From: Polyangiaceae bacterium
Lineage (GTDB): Bacteria > Myxococcota_A > Polyangia > Polyangiales > Polyangiaceae
DNA: 64,000 nt
Direction: 5' to 3'
NCBI GenBank assembly: GCA_013214025.1
Contig: JABSRN010000006.1
Location: 1-64,000, forward strand
Shown here: positions 54,575 to 64,000 of the stretch, in pieces
How positions within the stretch are numbered: position 1 is the first letter of the stretch
Layout: every line of letters starts with the position of its first letter
Notes under the pieces: generated by a model
What the model saw: the letters and a program-made list of their open reading frames with translations, nothing else
Database searches by the model: none
Told to the model about the DNA's origin: nothing
Made by a program: the position numbers and the translations under genes

Positions 54575-55024
54575 ATGAGAAAAGGCTCACGATCCCCTCC
54601 CAGCTCTCTCCGTTCGGCGTTCCGACGCAACTGGCTGAGCGATCGAGCAGCCGTCGGCCTCACCGACGACTGCTCGGCTCCGCCATTAGAGAACATCGAA
54701 TACGAAACGGCTGTCGACATCTCCGGTAGCCTGGCCCGGGCGGTGGTGTACATCCAATCCGAATTGTACAAACTTCGCCAACTGCTACGTCGACTGGAGA
54801 GCGCCCGTGCTGCATCGGACGGGTCCGAAGAGGCAACATTGGTTGCGAACTTCAACGCCTCACGGGACGAGGCAACGTGGCGACTCGGGCAACTACGAAT
54901 TCAACGGGCGGCCCTCGGCGTTGAATGCCACAAAGAGCTCGATGTGCTGTATCCGATACCGCAGTCCCAAAGAGCGACACTCCCGGGCTACTCGTCGACG
55001 AGCAGTGGTCGCTGGGATCATTAG
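54575..55024 (+). CDS. Small helical protein of unknown function
   Basis: A 149-residue protein from an ATG. The centre is strongly helical and may form a coiled coil (AVVYIQSELYKLRQLLRRLE; ATWRLGQLRIQRAALGVE). The N-terminus is basic and Ser-rich, the C-terminus short and polar. The stop overlaps that of the kinase gene on the opposite strand by four bases. No family is recognised, and there is no strong Shine-Dalgarno, so the gene call itself is uncertain. Confidence 0.45.
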   Translation: MRKGSRSPPSSLRSAFRRNWLSDRAAVGLTDDCSAPPLENIEYETAVDISGSLARAVVYIQSELYKLRQLLRRLESARAASDGSEEATLVANFNASRDEATWRLGQLRIQRAALGVECHKELDVLYPIPQSQRATLPGYSSTSSGRWDH

Positions 55025-57054
55025 TCGGTCGCGGGCGGACGCTCAGTCTGTCCTCGCTGCACCTCAGTTGGCATGAGCTGACGCATATACCAAGCGTGAG
55101 CGAATAATTTTTCTTCCGCCGCGTTGAACCGTTCCACCGCGATGCCAATGATGGCCGCCGGCACGCCGATGGTCAGCACTGCTACGCCCATGAGCAACGG
55201 GATCGTAGTGGAGGCGTCGAAGGGCATACCCCACGGTTGAATGCACATGACGCCCCCTTCATGAAAAGTGTACGACGCCCTGATGTAACCCCAATCCTGC
55301 AAGAACGCCGGCACCAGAACTCCGAGGATCCCGATCCCCAGAGACATCATCCACATTTTTCGGTCCATCCGCATGGCGACAATGAACAGGAGTGTGAGTG
55401 CACAAATGATGCTCGGTACGATAAAAAGCGCACCGAACCCTGTCGTGGTCGAGCCACCAATCGCTGCGGTCAGCGCCACCAAACTGAACATATGGCGTTT
55501 GGTCGCGCGCCCGTGGGCTCCGATACGCCAGAGCAACAAGCCAATACCTAAGAACAGGACGATGGAGAACAGAAACGACACGGTGTCGCCGACTCCAACG
55601 TAGACGTTCACACCAAACAGGACGATGCCCGTGAGAAAGGCCAGAGAGAGAGCCTTGGCGAACTCTGCTCGCTGTCCAGCCCGCTCCGACTCCAGTTCGG
55701 CAGCGGCTTCCGGGGGAAGCTTTTCAGGAACGTCGGAAAGCAATAGTCCCATCGCGCGCAAGGCCGCATCATTTGTTGAATCTAAGGACACCGCCGCGTT
55801 GAGTTCACGTAGAGCCCGCGCTCGTAACATCTCTACGTCCTGTGGATTGCTACGCGCATCCCGGGCTGCCTGGCGAGCCGCCTCCACATGGCGCTCGGCC
55901 ATTTGTCGGCGGGCCTCCGTGTCACGGCCGCCATCGAGATAACGCTCGATGGTTTCGGCGACGTCTAACATGTCGTGATAACGGTGGTCGCGATTCAGAG
56001 CGGTGGCGGCGACACAAAGCCGGTCGAGTTCCGGCGCAAAATTGCGATGGGGAGCCCTGACGCTCGGGCGCGCATCCACGCCCTTGACCGTCGACGCCAG
56101 TACGTCTTCCGCCTTGCCTCTCTTGTGTAAGGGAGTGAGCGTTAGTGTTTCGAATATGATGACACCCAAGGCGTAAATATCTGCGCGATGATCCACATCA
56201 CCATCAGCGTAGGCCTGCTCCGGCGCCAGGTATCCGGGAGTCCCCAGAACCGCGCCAGCCTCGGTTTGCCCTTGAATAGTCGTGTCGTCCACTCTCAACT
56301 GATCGCTAGGACGGGAGGGTTCCTCCGCGCCAAATATTTTCGCGAGCCCCCAATCAATAATGTAAACCTCGCCATAATTTCCGACGATGATATTTTCCGG
56401 TTTGATATCACGGTGCACCACACCGTGTTGGTGGGCATAAGCCAGAGCTTGGGCGACCCGCAGCAAGGTCGTCAAGATCCGCCGGTCGGAATACGTGGCC
56501 TTCAACTCGGGATCGCCCTTGCGGAGGCGAACGGTGATCTCCTCCAAAGTGAGGCCCCGAATGCGCTTCATGGTGAAGTACGCCGCGCCTTCGGGAGTGA
56601 CCCCTAAGTCGTATACCGGCACGATCGCCGGATGTTCGAGTTGGCCTTGGACTCGGGCCTCTCGTCGAAACCTCTCCAAAATGTCTGTCGCATGAATGTA
56701 CTTGTCGCGTACGACCTTCATGGCGATGTCTCGGCCAATCCGCTCGTCTCGGATCAACTTGACCTCTCCCATGCCGCCGTCACCCAGAAGACGCTTGGTG
56801 TGGTAACGACCCTCAAATTGCTCACCCACGACGGTGACATCGATATCGACCATGCTCGACTGGGACATGGATTTGGGGCGGTCGCCCCACACGGCTGCTG
56901 GCTGGCGACTCACCGAACTGAGTTCTGCTCCCTGGTGGGATTGCGCGCGCGCCAACGACGGCTCACAGGCAAACGGCGTGTCTGGATGAGTCGAGGGACT
57001 CCGTGCCAGACGTTTGGGCGGCTTCGGCGGCTTCGGCGGCTGGGAATCGCTCAT
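55021..57054 (-). CDS. Hanks-type Ser/Thr kinase with C-terminal transmembrane domain
   Basis: From the ATG at 57054 the protein has 677 residues (GTG at 57063 possible). The kinase domain spans about 85-380: glycine loop GDGGMGEVKL, beta-3 Lys in IAMKVV, VVHRDIKPENIIV (HRD and Asn intact), IIDWGLAKIFG (DFG as DWG) and GTPGYLAPEQA. A helical linker (about 395-460) precedes about six transmembrane helices (LAFLTGIVLFGVNVYVGVG; FLFSIVLFLGIGLLLWRIG; LVALTAAIGGSTTTGF; and others). This kinase-then-polytopic-membrane plan is common in Polyangia, and the membrane part may be a sensor. Substrate unknown. Confidence 0.93.
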   Translation of the reverse strand: MSDSQPPKPPKPPKRLARSPSTHPDTPFACEPSLARAQSHQGAELSSVSRQPAAVWGDRPKSMSQSSMVDIDVTVVGEQFEGRYHTKRLLGDGGMGEVKLIRDERIGRDIAMKVVRDKYIHATDILERFRREARVQGQLEHPAIVPVYDLGVTPEGAAYFTMKRIRGLTLEEITVRLRKGDPELKATYSDRRILTTLLRVAQALAYAHQHGVVHRDIKPENIIVGNYGEVYIIDWGLAKIFGAEEPSRPSDQLRVDDTTIQGQTEAGAVLGTPGYLAPEQAYADGDVDHRADIYALGVIIFETLTLTPLHKRGKAEDVLASTVKGVDARPSVRAPHRNFAPELDRLCVAATALNRDHRYHDMLDVAETIERYLDGGRDTEARRQMAERHVEAARQAARDARSNPQDVEMLRARALRELNAAVSLDSTNDAALRAMGLLLSDVPEKLPPEAAAELESERAGQRAEFAKALSLAFLTGIVLFGVNVYVGVGDTVSFLFSIVLFLGIGLLLWRIGAHGRATKRHMFSLVALTAAIGGSTTTGFGALFIVPSIICALTLLFIVAMRMDRKMWMMSLGIGILGVLVPAFLQDWGYIRASYTFHEGGVMCIQPWGMPFDASTTIPLLMGVAVLTIGVPAAIIGIAVERFNAAEEKLFAHAWYMRQLMPTEVQRGQTERPPATD

Positions 57055-57189
57055 GATCGTCACAAGTGTAGTGAGCGACCACAGATTGGCCCAATCCCAT
57101 GGCTGCGACGTTCCGCATCATCAGCTCATCAGTAACGACATCAGGAGGCGAACCGAGCTCGGTTCCGAACGGCTGGTCAATGGCCGATT

Positions 57190-59663: not shown

Positions 59664-61847
59664 CTAAATGTCATCCGGGGTGAAGGCCTTTTTGGCGGCC
59701 TTGGGCTTCGCCTTCCGTTTGGGCCGTTTCTTAGGCGCTTTTCTCGTGACGGGTCGGGGGGGCCTGGGGGCCTGGGGAACTACCACCGGCTTCACTGGCT
59801 GAGCCTCAGGCTCCACCTCGGCGGGCTCATTTTCTACCTCCGCGCTCATCGCCGGCGCGGGACTGTCCGGTCCAACCGTGTTGGCGCTCGGGGCCGACTC
59901 GACACTCGGCTCGGGCACCTCGGGGACTTTCAACTCGGGCTCGTTTGCGGCAACGGGGGCGTCTGCCGAAGCCGCGGTCGCTGTTGACGTCGTCTCAGTC
60001 TTAATTGAGGTGGTGTCGGATGATGCCCACCACACAGCAGCGAAAACCATCAGGGAACCGACAGCTGCCGCTATCCAAATGACGGGTGGGCCTTCCCCCC
60101 GGGGGCCCGACGATGCCCCCCCGCCAGGTGGAATGGCCGCTGCCCCTGCCTGCCCGCCAGGCAGGGCGTCGGAGGGGGCGTACACCCTACCGAACGCACG
60201 TTTTGGCGCCGGAGCATGAGAAATACGATCTTCGAAAGATGGGACTCCCGCAGCGTCAGACGCCTCCACCGACGGCTGAACTCCCGTGGGTGCGGCCTCA
60301 GGAAATGCACTGGGCACCTCGGACACATCGACGGGAATTTCGATCGTGCCCGACAACACCGGCGGCGGAACGGCAAAATCTGGCGCGCTCGCCAGTGCCG
60401 CTGTCTCTTCGAAGGAGATCTGTTCCGGTTCTGGCTCCGGCTCCGGCATCGGCTCCGGCATCGGCGTCTTTTCGACCGCGACGCTAGTTTTGTTAGCCTC
60501 CGCAGCGGCGGCGCCATCCGTAACGGCCGGCTTCTCCACCGACGCCTTCGGCGCGGGGGCGACCAGACCCGCCAGCAGAGCGTCCTGGGGCATACGAACC
60601 GTCTGTTCCTCCTCGGTCCGATGCCCTCCACTGCGCTCCGCCGGAACAAGCGGTGCCGGACCTGTTTTTTTTACGCCCGATGCTGCCACCGACGGTGCCT
60701 GGGGCGTCACCGCCGATGGTGTCTCGGTGGAGAACGCAGGCTTGTGAAGATCAATCCTGGGAATCGATGGCGCACGCTTCCGAATCGGCGCCGCTGGCTT
60801 CGCTTCGGTACCTACCTTGGGCGTCGGCTTGTTGAGAACCGGGGGCGCCATACCCAGCATGGTGCGCTGAACTTTTCTGGGTACGCGCCGTCCGGCACCA
60901 GCGCCCGGAAGTGAACTCCGCGTCTTTGCCTTCAAGGCATGGGCCAATTGGTCTCTGCGATTTTCCAAGGGCCGAGCACAGAGTTCGGCGACATACGCGC
61001 CAAGCTCGTCTCTGCCGGGCAGCGCTTCACCCAAAGCCAACAGCGCGTCGGCAAACTCATCCAGCGTCGCGTAGCGATCCGTGGGATCTCGCTGCAGTGC
61101 CTTGTCGACTATGTCTGCGAGTTCCGGACGAATCGTCGCCCCATCCTTCCGCTTCAGGCTGTCTGCACGGGGGATCTTGGCGCCCAATACCTTCTGCCCC
61201 ACCGCTCGTGCCGAACCGATAAACAAGCGGCGCGTAGTGAGTAGCTCCCAGAGCAGGATCCCGACAGAGAACACATCCGAAGTCTCCGTCGCTTCTTTGT
61301 TACCACCAATTGTTTCTGGTGACGAATAGGCGATCATCTCCGCGCTCGCACCGACGCTTTCGAATTTCGTGGCGGCACTGGACACCACAACGTCGAACAG
61401 CCGGACGCCTCCGTCCGTGCCCAACAACACACTGTCGGGACTGACCCCCCCATGGCAGAGCTGCTCAGCCAACACGGCCTTGAGCGCATCGATTATGTCC
61501 AAACTGATACGCAGCACGGCCTCCACCGTCGGCGGCATCCGCCTCACTCCGCCAAGCAACTGAACCTGACGCAAGCCTTCGCACTCCATGTGTGGGCTCA
61601 CCAAACCGATGCAGCCATCGCCTTGCACGCACTCGAGCACGGACGCTACTGACGGGTGGACGATACCACTCGCCTGCTCCGCCAGCTCCAAAAAGCGGGG
61701 AACATCGGCGCCATCTGGAATCGCCAACATCCGCAGCAACACCGGTGAGCCCGTTGGGTCCAGTGCGGCGTACAGGGACCCCATCGGGCTCTTGGCGACT
61801 TCGCTGACTAGAGCGTACTCATCGATGGTCGGGGCAGAACTTGACAT
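59664..61847 (-). CDS. Membrane-anchored pseudokinase with Pro/Ala/Glu linker and Lys/Pro-rich tail
   Basis: From the ATG at 61847 the protein has 727 residues (ATG at 61874 possible). The kinase-fold part is about residues 9-275, with ALLAL helices at the end. The beta-3 Lys is missing (VLLRML, Arg), the HRD loop is HGGVSPDS (His-Gly-Gly, no catalytic Asp), and DFG becomes FDV (Asp kept). The APE-like SPETIGG is present. It is therefore a pseudokinase. A long low-complexity linker with Pro/Glu repeats follows, a TM helix near residues 590-610 (IWIAAAVGSLMVFAAVWWAS), and a basic tail (KKRPKRKAKPKAAKKA). Divergent from the gene at 62059. Confidence 0.85.
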   Translation of the reverse strand: MSSSAPTIDEYALVSEVAKSPMGSLYAALDPTGSPVLLRMLAIPDGADVPRFLELAEQASGIVHPSVASVLECVQGDGCIGLVSPHMECEGLRQVQLLGGVRRMPPTVEAVLRISLDIIDALKAVLAEQLCHGGVSPDSVLLGTDGGVRLFDVVVSSAATKFESVGASAEMIAYSSPETIGGNKEATETSDVFSVGILLWELLTTRRLFIGSARAVGQKVLGAKIPRADSLKRKDGATIRPELADIVDKALQRDPTDRYATLDEFADALLALGEALPGRDELGAYVAELCARPLENRRDQLAHALKAKTRSSLPGAGAGRRVPRKVQRTMLGMAPPVLNKPTPKVGTEAKPAAPIRKRAPSIPRIDLHKPAFSTETPSAVTPQAPSVAASGVKKTGPAPLVPAERSGGHRTEEEQTVRMPQDALLAGLVAPAPKASVEKPAVTDGAAAAEANKTSVAVEKTPMPEPMPEPEPEPEQISFEETAALASAPDFAVPPPVLSGTIEIPVDVSEVPSAFPEAAPTGVQPSVEASDAAGVPSFEDRISHAPAPKRAFGRVYAPSDALPGGQAGAAAIPPGGGASSGPRGEGPPVIWIAAAVGSLMVFAAVWWASSDTTSIKTETTSTATAASADAPVAANEPELKVPEVPEPSVESAPSANTVGPDSPAPAMSAEVENEPAEVEPEAQPVKPVVVPQAPRPPRPVTRKAPKKRPKRKAKPKAAKKAFTPDDI

Positions 61848-62058
61848 ACTATCGCTGGGACCTGCGGCCAGCATAATGGGTCGTCTCTCCCCGGGCAAAA
61901 CGTGCCCAATTCGGAGCCCCATCCGACCCCGCAAGCGCATGCCGAACCGGACAGTCCCCAGCCAATCGACTCGCCGGCCTACACATGCCCGGGTGTCGAA
62001 CCGCGAAAACTCCGGGAGTTCTTCACCAAACGCCAGGCACACGCCATGATGTCGACTT
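61848..62058. promoter_or_regulatory. Divergent control region between pseudokinase and pseudo-receiver genes
   Basis: The 211 bases separate the two divergent starts. I find no clear sigma-70 box. Both genes most likely have their promoters here, so common regulation is possible but unproven. Confidence 0.4.
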
Positions 62059-64000
62059 ATGGCAGTTAGTCGGCGGCCGCCCCCCAGACACCCAACGGAC
62101 ACCTCCGGCTCTCAGACACCAGAGTCCGAGCCAGCGGTGCTGTTGGTGGGAGCCGACAGGGCGTTCCACGACGCATTGGCCGCGGCCCTCTCCAACTACA
62201 ACGTGTTCGTCGAAAACGTGGAAACCGACGCTGTGTACGAATGCGCGCAGGCTGCGGCTCCCGATCTGATTTTGCTGATGGGGGATTCCGCACTCGGCGG
62301 TGGGACCCAGGCTCTCCAACTGCTGTCCGGTTCGCCCCAGACCTCGGTGATCCCGGTCGCCATCCTCGCGGATGACGCTGCGTTGGCAGAACGACTCAAG
62401 GCATTTCGACACGGCGCGACCGCCGTTATACCGCTCACCGCCTCGGTGGATGCGATCGCGGTCGAGATCGCTCACTTGGCGAGAGAAATCCCGGACCGCG
62501 ACGGTACGACGACGGGGCAGCTCGGCGATACCACCCTCGATGAGCTCGTTCGCGCTCTAACAACCGAGCTGCGAAGCGGAATCTTGTCAGTGCGCGGCGG
62601 CGCAACCAGCGATGAAGAAGCGATCCGCCTCGTTCTGGGCGGCGGCCGACCTCTTGCCCAAACCATCGACGAATTTGTTTCCCAGCTGCGTGAGCACGTC
62701 GTTCACGCGGAACCGCTGCATTACGAATTTGACGAACGCGCTGGGGGAACGGTCCAGTTCTTGGGCGGCGATAGTCTGGCACCACCAGGGGCCCCCGAGG
62801 ACGTCGCGGGACTGCGACTTTTGATCGCGGACAAGAACTCCGGCCGAGCTGATGCCGTTGCGCAGGCGCTGAGGTCTCACGACATTGAGGCGACCGTCAC
62901 GGACTTCGATGTGAACGAGGCCCGGGTGTCCCGGCTCCGCCAAGTCGATCCGGCGATTCTCCTGATATCCGACGAAGATCTGCGCGGGGATGGCTATGCG
63001 TTGGTGCGTCTGATGCGCCAGGACACACGATTGCGATGGGCATCACTATTGGTCGTACCCTGGGATGAAGTCTGGCCCGAAGACACGAACGTACCCCACG
63101 TAGATGAAATGCTGGCAACGTTGGCAACGTTGGCCGAGCCCGAACATAGTATCCGGGACCGCATCCGCTCGGGACTAGCCTTTGACACCCGACTGGAAGT
63201 GACCGGCCCCGCTCGGATGCTAAGAGCGCTGATGAGATCTCCGCACATGTTGCGCGTCAGTGTGTTCAACACGCGAGCCTACGTGCAGGTCGACATTTCT
63301 GACGAGTTGGTCGTGGGCGCCAACGGCGAAATCCAAGGCGACGACCCGTTCTCCACGGAAGGAATCGAGGCGCTGTCTACATTGCTGGTGCTCGGATCCG
63401 GACGCGTGCATATCGAGAAAATCACTCACGCCCAATCCGCCAACGTCATGGCGACCATCGCAGTCGCGCTGACCCAATCGGAGGGTTCCCCGCCGCCATT
63501 AGCCCCCTCAATCCCAGCGCCGTCTGGCACCCTTCCCCCGCCGCCGATAGCCACCCAGGCGGAACCAGCGGGCAGCAACCCCCTTGCTACTGTGACAACG
63601 GCAGCAACCCCCAAGGCAAAGCTAATCGCCATCGCCGTTATCGCGTCAGCACTGTGTCTGGTGCTGGGCATCGTGCTGACCCGAGGCGGCGATTCTGCAA
63701 GCGTTGTCGCATCTGTTAATTCGACGGCGACCGCCCCCCAGAAGGCCGAAGCCCGGCCGTGGCCGAGCCCCTCGGCCACGGCCGGTGATGAAGTCGCCCC
63801 TGGACCCGCCCCGTCGGCGCACGTGGAGGAAGCGGACGTGCCAGCGGAGCCGGAGGAACCCGCGGGCGATCCACCGGGAGCCGTCGCGGAACTCACGAGC
63901 CGAGAAGTACAAAATATAGCCCCGTCATGCGAAACGTTGGTGGGGGCGGCATGGGAACTTCTGCTGCGCGGAAATCGGGAGGGCCAATCGATTATCGAAT
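62059..64000 (+). CDS. Membrane protein with two pseudo-receiver domains, 3' end outside the window
   Basis: An ATG at 62059 opens a frame of 647 codons with no stop before the window ends. The first receiver-like domain (about 26-130, VLLVGADRAFHDALAAALSN) has Met where the phospho-acceptor Asp should be (PDLILLMGDS). A DUF4388-like block follows (TTLDELVRALTTELRSGILS). The second receiver-like domain (LRLLIADKNSGRADAVAQAL, from about 255) has Ser at that place (PAILLISDED). Another block, then a Pro/Ala linker, a TM helix at about 520-542 (LIAIAVIASALCLVLGIVLT) and a Pro/Ala-rich outer part follow. It cannot be a normal response regulator; it probably senses or scaffolds with the neighbouring pseudokinase. 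Confidence 0.8.
   Translation, partial: MAVSRRPPPRHPTDTSGSQTPESEPAVLLVGADRAFHDALAAALSNYNVFVENVETDAVYECAQAAAPDLILLMGDSALGGGTQALQLLSGSPQTSVIPVAILADDAALAERLKAFRHGATAVIPLTASVDAIAVEIAHLAREIPDRDGTTTGQLGDTTLDELVRALTTELRSGILSVRGGATSDEEAIRLVLGGGRPLAQTIDEFVSQLREHVVHAEPLHYEFDERAGGTVQFLGGDSLAPPGAPEDVAGLRLLIADKNSGRADAVAQALRSHDIEATVTDFDVNEARVSRLRQVDPAILLISDEDLRGDGYALVRLMRQDTRLRWASLLVVPWDEVWPEDTNVPHVDEMLATLATLAEPEHSIRDRIRSGLAFDTRLEVTGPARMLRALMRSPHMLRVSVFNTRAYVQVDISDELVVGANGEIQGDDPFSTEGIEALSTLLVLGSGRVHIEKITHAQSANVMATIAVALTQSEGSPPPLAPSIPAPSGTLPPPPIATQAEPAGSNPLATVTTAATPKAKLIAIAVIASALCLVLGIVLTRGGDSASVVASVNSTATAPQKAEARPWPSPSATAGDEVAPGPAPSAHVEEADVPAEPEEPAGDPPGAVAELTSREVQNIAPSCETLVGAAWELLLRGNREGQSIIE

Follow-up and report, generated by a model that had tools for sequence, protein, structure and literature searches.

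Gene layout and setting of the locus

The window analysed here, viz. the whole stretch of 64,000 nucleotides, lies on contig C141 of a source assembly of 5.8 Mb in 184 contigs. Its last part carries the genes for two membrane proteins, referred to below as protein A and protein B, whose divergent ORFs start at positions 61847 on the minus strand and 62059 on the plus strand, leaving a gap of 211 bp.

59664 to 61847, minus strand: gene for protein A, a membrane pseudokinase of 727 aa, identified from its ORF, a Pfam Pkinase match (3.9e-15) and its profile family
61848 to 62058, no strand: intergenic region of 211 bp between A and B, in an arrangement that is not conserved
62059 to 64000, plus strand, cut by the window end: gene for protein B, 865 aa at full length (contig C141:62059-64656)

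The first-pass annotation of this DNA described two proteins sharing a control region of 211 bases. The gap and the divergent orientation are as described, but the proposed control region is not conserved and the sole other A-B neighbours are in tandem; further, a search of the 211-bp gap found no sigma-70-like promoter. The end of the second gene, which was to be sought in the adjoining sequence, was found 656 bp past the window, and the completed 865 aa protein was thereby seen to have an outer TPR domain. At positions 55021-57063 of the window, 2.6 kb from A and on the same strand, there is a further kinase that looks active and has several hydrophobic stretches. Just past the window, beyond B (L003:9679-11608, contig C141), there are genes for a CheY-like receiver, a phosphatase of the CheX type and a short fragment resembling an MCP. 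The relatives identified by name in this work are metagenome assemblies from Polyangiaceae or other Myxococcales.

Protein A and its family of pseudokinases

In protein A, the kinase domain is joined by a linker rich in Pro and Ala to a single TM helix, beyond which there is a basic outer tail.

60918 to 61847, minus strand: pseudokinase domain of A, from a 46-kinase alignment, an AlphaFold2 model and Foldseek
60841 to 60873, minus strand: cytoplasmic linker motif VQRTMLGMAPP, of the family form xxT[LMI][LMIV]G[IMV]xP
60027 to 60083, minus strand: TM helix of A, from hydropathy and a positive-inside count
59667 to 59684, minus strand: conserved six-residue motif FTPDDI-COOH, with which the basic outer tail of A closes

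The match of A to Pfam Pkinase (PF00069) and its modelled bilobal structure place it within the Ser/Thr kinase fold. The AlphaFold2 model of A has a pLDDT of 81 and a pTM of 0.85, the structure models in this work having been built on shallow alignments (14 and 6 rows), and in Foldseek its best PDB match is Stk1 of S. aureus, followed by PknB, with a TM score of about 0.7. Structure prediction, which had been suggested as a check, therefore shows A to have the fold of a kinase, with Stk1 and PknB as close matches, and the reported absence of the HRD Asp and the beta-3 Lys is confirmed, as these residues read Gly134 and Arg39 in A, whose DFG motif reads DVV. In the 46-kinase alignment, the catalytic Asp is absent from all 33 sampled A-type proteins (Gly in 25), the beta-3 Lys is replaced by Arg in 31/33 and the alpha-C Glu is missing from 32/33, while the DFG acid is still Asp or Glu in 30/33; all 13 active relatives retain the Lys, Glu, HRD, Asn and DFG residues. 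Because the losses follow a conserved pattern, they do not represent plain decay, and A shows family-wide the features by which pseudokinases are defined, viz. loss of the VAIK Lys, the HRD Asp and/or DFG. Based on these sequence comparisons, the assignment of A as a pseudokinase, predicted to be non-catalytic, is well supported.

A profile made from eleven A-type kinases and run on 108 genomes of Polyangiaceae gave strong matches in roughly 23 of them. In a phylogenetic tree the A-type pseudokinases are separated from their active relatives by a 100/100 branch, a split that is partly due to selection, as the members were picked by the profile.

It may be asked if A catalyses a different reaction by means of its conserved beta-3 Arg (31/33) and DFG Asp/Glu (30/33), as kinase-fold proteins with different catalysis are exemplified by SelO and SidJ. 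However, the glycine-rich loop, the alpha-C Glu and the catalytic loop are all gone in the A family, whereas SelO, as listed in Table 1 of PMC12599244, retains the Lys and the Asn, and we regard such an activity as very improbable.

The outer tail motif and the usual partner gene

A and B have one TM helix each, and the family charge bias is consistent with an N-in topology. About half of the pseudokinases have the linker motif, which among the HRD-bearing relatives is found only in L070. A more distinctive feature is the C-terminal motif [FYLI]xPxx[IL]-COOH, which is present in 24 of the 27 complete pseudokinases as against 0/12 active relatives (P = 1e-7). In its strict form it occurs in 21 of the 459 ORFs called in the loci, 20 of these being A-type and the other an active kinase close to one, and among 30 kinases inspected in the source genome it is limited to A and its paralogue C47. 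Active relatives often end in NPY[RK] or in Cys-containing, KxxCL-like tails, and tails of these kinds are seen on active kinases of the same group in L085, L086, L111, L112 and L114. The presence of other tails on active kinases of A's group suggests that the types of outer tail may mark types of partner. The A-type clade with its conserved outer tail motif is a family for which we found no description.

The usual neighbour of an A-type gene codes for a TPR-like protein that is exported, and is located downstream on the same strand in 11 loci (a twelfth is cut by a contig end), mostly 7-60 bp after the A-type gene or overlapping it. The exported partner is about 340 aa long and ends in a C-terminal Phe; its TPR-like repeats were recognised by eye and by hhalign, its matches to Pfam TPR being sub-threshold or none. 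Its homologues make up a large Polyangiaceae family ending in Phe, often with more than 10 members per genome (e.g. L116:7960-9015) and with kinases as frequent neighbours, and distant homologues adjoin active kinases carrying NPYR tails. In the source genome, 9 of the 20 exported TPR-like genes are found within 2.5 kb of a kinase, where 10% is expected (P = 5e-5). A in the window has no exported TPR-like gene as a neighbour; the closest homologue of the exported partner in the source genome (C108:99629-100612; 2.7e-92) is unlinked and has no kinase within 13 kb.

Periplasmic PDZ proteins of the DegS/Tsp type read a free hydrophobic C-terminus, and the outer tail of A could accordingly be envisaged as a ligand of such a protein, with A reporting envelope stress. 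The tail motif, like PDZ ligands, ends in Ile/Leu-COOH, and the Phe at the end of the exported partners is of the same tenor. However, the conserved aromatic residue and Pro are more distant from the C-terminus than is usual for PDZ ligands, and among the neighbours of the A-type family, which were clustered and in part annotated, no PDZ gene was recognised beside it. This explanation is thus considered improbable.

Protein B and its domains

The order of domains in B is receiver-like, PATAN/DUF4388-like, receiver-like, PATAN-like, linker, TM helix and TPR domain.

62131 to 62487, plus strand: pseudo-receiver 1 of B, with Met74 in place of Asp and no acidic pair, near the FrzS structure
62506 to 62793, plus strand: PATAN/DUF4388-like domain 1, with Pfam hits in homologues, poorly modelled in B
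62806 to 63153, plus strand: pseudo-receiver 2 of B, with Ser304 in place of Asp
63181 to 63504, plus strand: PATAN/DUF4388-like domain 2, after the second receiver
63622 to 63678, plus strand: TM helix of B, the TPR domain that follows it lying almost wholly past the window

Two receiver-like domains lacking the phospho-acceptor Asp, with Met and Ser in its place, had been reported for B, and both are present as Met74 and Ser304; structure prediction gives a receiver fold, so that B carries pseudo-receivers in the usual sense of a receiver fold without the Asp. In receiver 1 the Asp is lost in all 28 aligned rows, and ordinary receivers as well as the FrzS pseudo-receiver are among its nearest structure matches. 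In receiver 2 it is lost in 19/28 rows, including B and the window's family, and is kept in 9/28, which belong to other families of the order. PF14332 (PATAN/DUF4388) is matched at E <= 0.1 by 13 of 14 members of the B family, the window's B being the exception. The TPR domain (residues 648-861), which is predicted to be periplasmic, matches TPR_16, TPR_19 and TPR_2 above the gathering score. The description of A and B as having one TM helix each and low-complexity outer parts is correct for the helices and for the low complexity of A's outer part, but the tail of A has a conserved end motif and the outer part of B holds a TPR domain.

Proteins of the B type are common in the order and widespread without A. 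The domain types of B are known, but its layout was not found described in a non-exhaustive literature search. Elsewhere in the order, in other families, the B gene is oriented divergently from genes for exported proteins that carry VWA and MopE repeats (L039, L040, L045 and L047). A type IV pilus link through these VWA neighbours was considered and set aside, as they carry VWA and MopE repeats and no PilY1-type match was reported.

Do A and B form a unit?

An A-type gene adjoins B in 2/33 B loci, viz. in the window, where the genes are divergent, and in G006, where they are in tandem and 57 bp apart. The remaining 31 loci have no A-type neighbour, and in one of them an ordinary-looking kinase is adjoining. 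A conserved divergent A/B pair is thus ruled out: the search for the pair in other myxobacteria, which had been proposed, showed that the adjacency recurs once, but in tandem, and that B mostly has no kinase as its neighbour. Looser linkage is seen in G020 and G068, from two other genera, where A-type and B genes are 24-32 kb apart. Of the 108 genomes, both genes are present in 11, A only in 12, B only in 9 and neither in 76, giving P = 2e-4, a value that is not corrected for kinship. Further, a single protein of G121 (L131) is made up of a pseudokinase of the A type, followed by a TM helix and a TPR domain like that of B, and has no tail motif; in the tree L131 shares a moderately supported (80/85) subclade with the B-adjoining pseudokinase of G006. 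Of the signs that the cytoplasmic domain of A and the outer domain of B belong to one process, this fusion is the most direct. The inference from these sequences that A and B form a pair is weakly supported.

The observations can also be explained if A and B are unrelated neighbours brought together by local rearrangement, with A working with an unlinked exported TPR-like protein (e.g. C108:99629-100612) and B being a lone scaffold. In its favour, B has other neighbours in 31/33 loci, and a close but unlinked homologue of the exported protein is retained in the source genome (2.7e-92); however, the renewed adjacency in G006 (tandem, 57 bp), the looser linkage in two genera and the fusion of an A-type protein with a B-type TPR domain in a third speak against it. 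We consider this alternative a serious one, its probability being somewhat below even and close to that of our preferred explanation. It should be noted that B's TPR domain is like the exported partner at the level of the TPR repeat only (hhalign P = 0.003), and homology beyond the repeat was not supported by hhalign; due to this, the two need not bind the same peptide.

Proposed mode of action and the tandem relatives

Our preferred explanation, for which we would put the chance somewhat below even, is that A serves as a receptor subunit without catalysis of its own, which would dock by its tail on a TPR partner in the periplasm and signal by contact, with B as the partner in this locus. Against it speak the rarity of A-B adjacency (2/33 B loci), the wide occurrence of B without A, the likeness of the two TPR partners at the repeat level only, and the failure of the exported protein to reach the Pfam TPR cut-offs. 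The residue losses, the family, the charge bias, the tail motif, the gene partners and the fusions on which the reading of A is based are direct observations. According to this proposal, A would comprise a cytoplasmic pseudokinase domain, a long linker with a possible docking motif, the TM helix and the basic outer tail, which would bind a TPR domain in the periplasm by its free C-terminus, FTPDDI; TPR clamps that bind the C-terminal peptides of Hsp70 and Hsp90 provide a model for such docking. In many relatives the docking partner would be the exported TPR-like protein from the next gene, and in the window and one other genome the neighbour B, with its outer TPR domain and its cytoplasmic array of pseudo-receivers and PATAN domains. 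B would thus be a membrane scaffold able to serve as A's partner in the window genome. Binding on the outside may then reorganise the cytoplasmic domains and bring those of A and B together, the signal being passed by contact.

As output, an active Ser/Thr kinase would probably be controlled allosterically, because in three relatives (L133:1148-3703, L288:1812-6008 and L290:1851-5885) the pseudokinase is in tandem with an active-looking kinase on a single chain that ends in the same tail motif. In L133, the pseudokinase is followed by an HRD-bearing kinase and the tail FIPTDI, while the L288 and L290 proteins, which come from two large genomes, show a pseudokinase-kinase layout of 1344-1398 aa with the tail YNPSGI, and an exported-partner gene is located downstream of both. 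In the tree, the pseudokinase domain of L113 (the L288 protein) is nearest of all to the active kinases, a position that fits with the tandem proteins having come first; stand-alone pseudokinases such as A may then have arisen later by loss of the active domain. The earlier view of a non-catalytic relay or scaffold working without phosphotransfer agrees with the family-wide losses, but its being wholly free of phosphotransfer is less certain in view of the relatives with an active-looking kinase on the same chain. A still broader proposal, viz. a bacterial receptor system in which membrane pseudokinases sense the periplasm by a C-terminal peptide docked on a TPR-like domain, be it exported, membrane-borne or fused, and regulate active kinases through contact, as a counterpart of the JAK type, is at present rather unlikely in our estimate.

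Comparison with known systems

A 2025 review covers bacterial Ser/Thr pseudokinase families, several of them membrane-bound, EssB, MviN, GLW, ActPs2 and ActPs3 being described as membrane proteins; on searching its text, neither myxobacteria nor TPR was found mentioned (PMC12599244). Like A, its EssB/YukC, MviN, GLW and ActPs families have a kinase fold with several catalytic motifs lost, and EssB/YukC, a non-catalytic membrane scaffold (PMC12599244), is the closest functional precedent for A. The ActPs3/MviN type is marked by a deletion in the activation loop (PMC12599244). The GLW pseudokinases are distinct in having GLW for HRD and Leu/Trp at beta-3 (PMC12599244), whereas A, in which HRD reads xGG and beta-3 reads Arg, falls outside this group. 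For a tail motif with an exported TPR-like partner gene, as seen in the A type, we found no counterpart in the family descriptions consulted in the review (PMC12599244).

For B, a close likeness is to FrzS of Myxococcus xanthus, which has a receiver fold without the phospho-acceptor Asp (PMC1974792), as has receiver 1. However, FrzS has a single receiver and a coiled coil (PMC11580455), whereas in B a second receiver is present, together with PATAN domains, TPRs and a TM helix. EcpK of M. xanthus is, like A, a myxobacterial pseudokinase, but it is a tyrosine pseudokinase in exopolysaccharide synthesis (PMC12004946), and bacterial tyrosine kinases differ in fold from Ser/Thr kinases (PMC12599244). 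Eukaryotic-like kinases number in the hundreds in myxobacteria, with 353 of them in Minicystis rosea (PMC8436480). The outer tail, the adjacent exported partner and the natural fusions described here offer concrete contacts that can be probed.

In JAK, a pseudokinase and a kinase are in tandem on one chain. The proteins of L133, L288 and L290, in which the pseudokinase is ahead of an active-looking kinase on a single chain, are JAK-like in this regard; they differ in being bacterial and predicted single-pass membrane proteins, and A itself lacks the active domain. The A family is thus a set of bacterial pseudokinases for which a tandem form with an active kinase is available for comparison.
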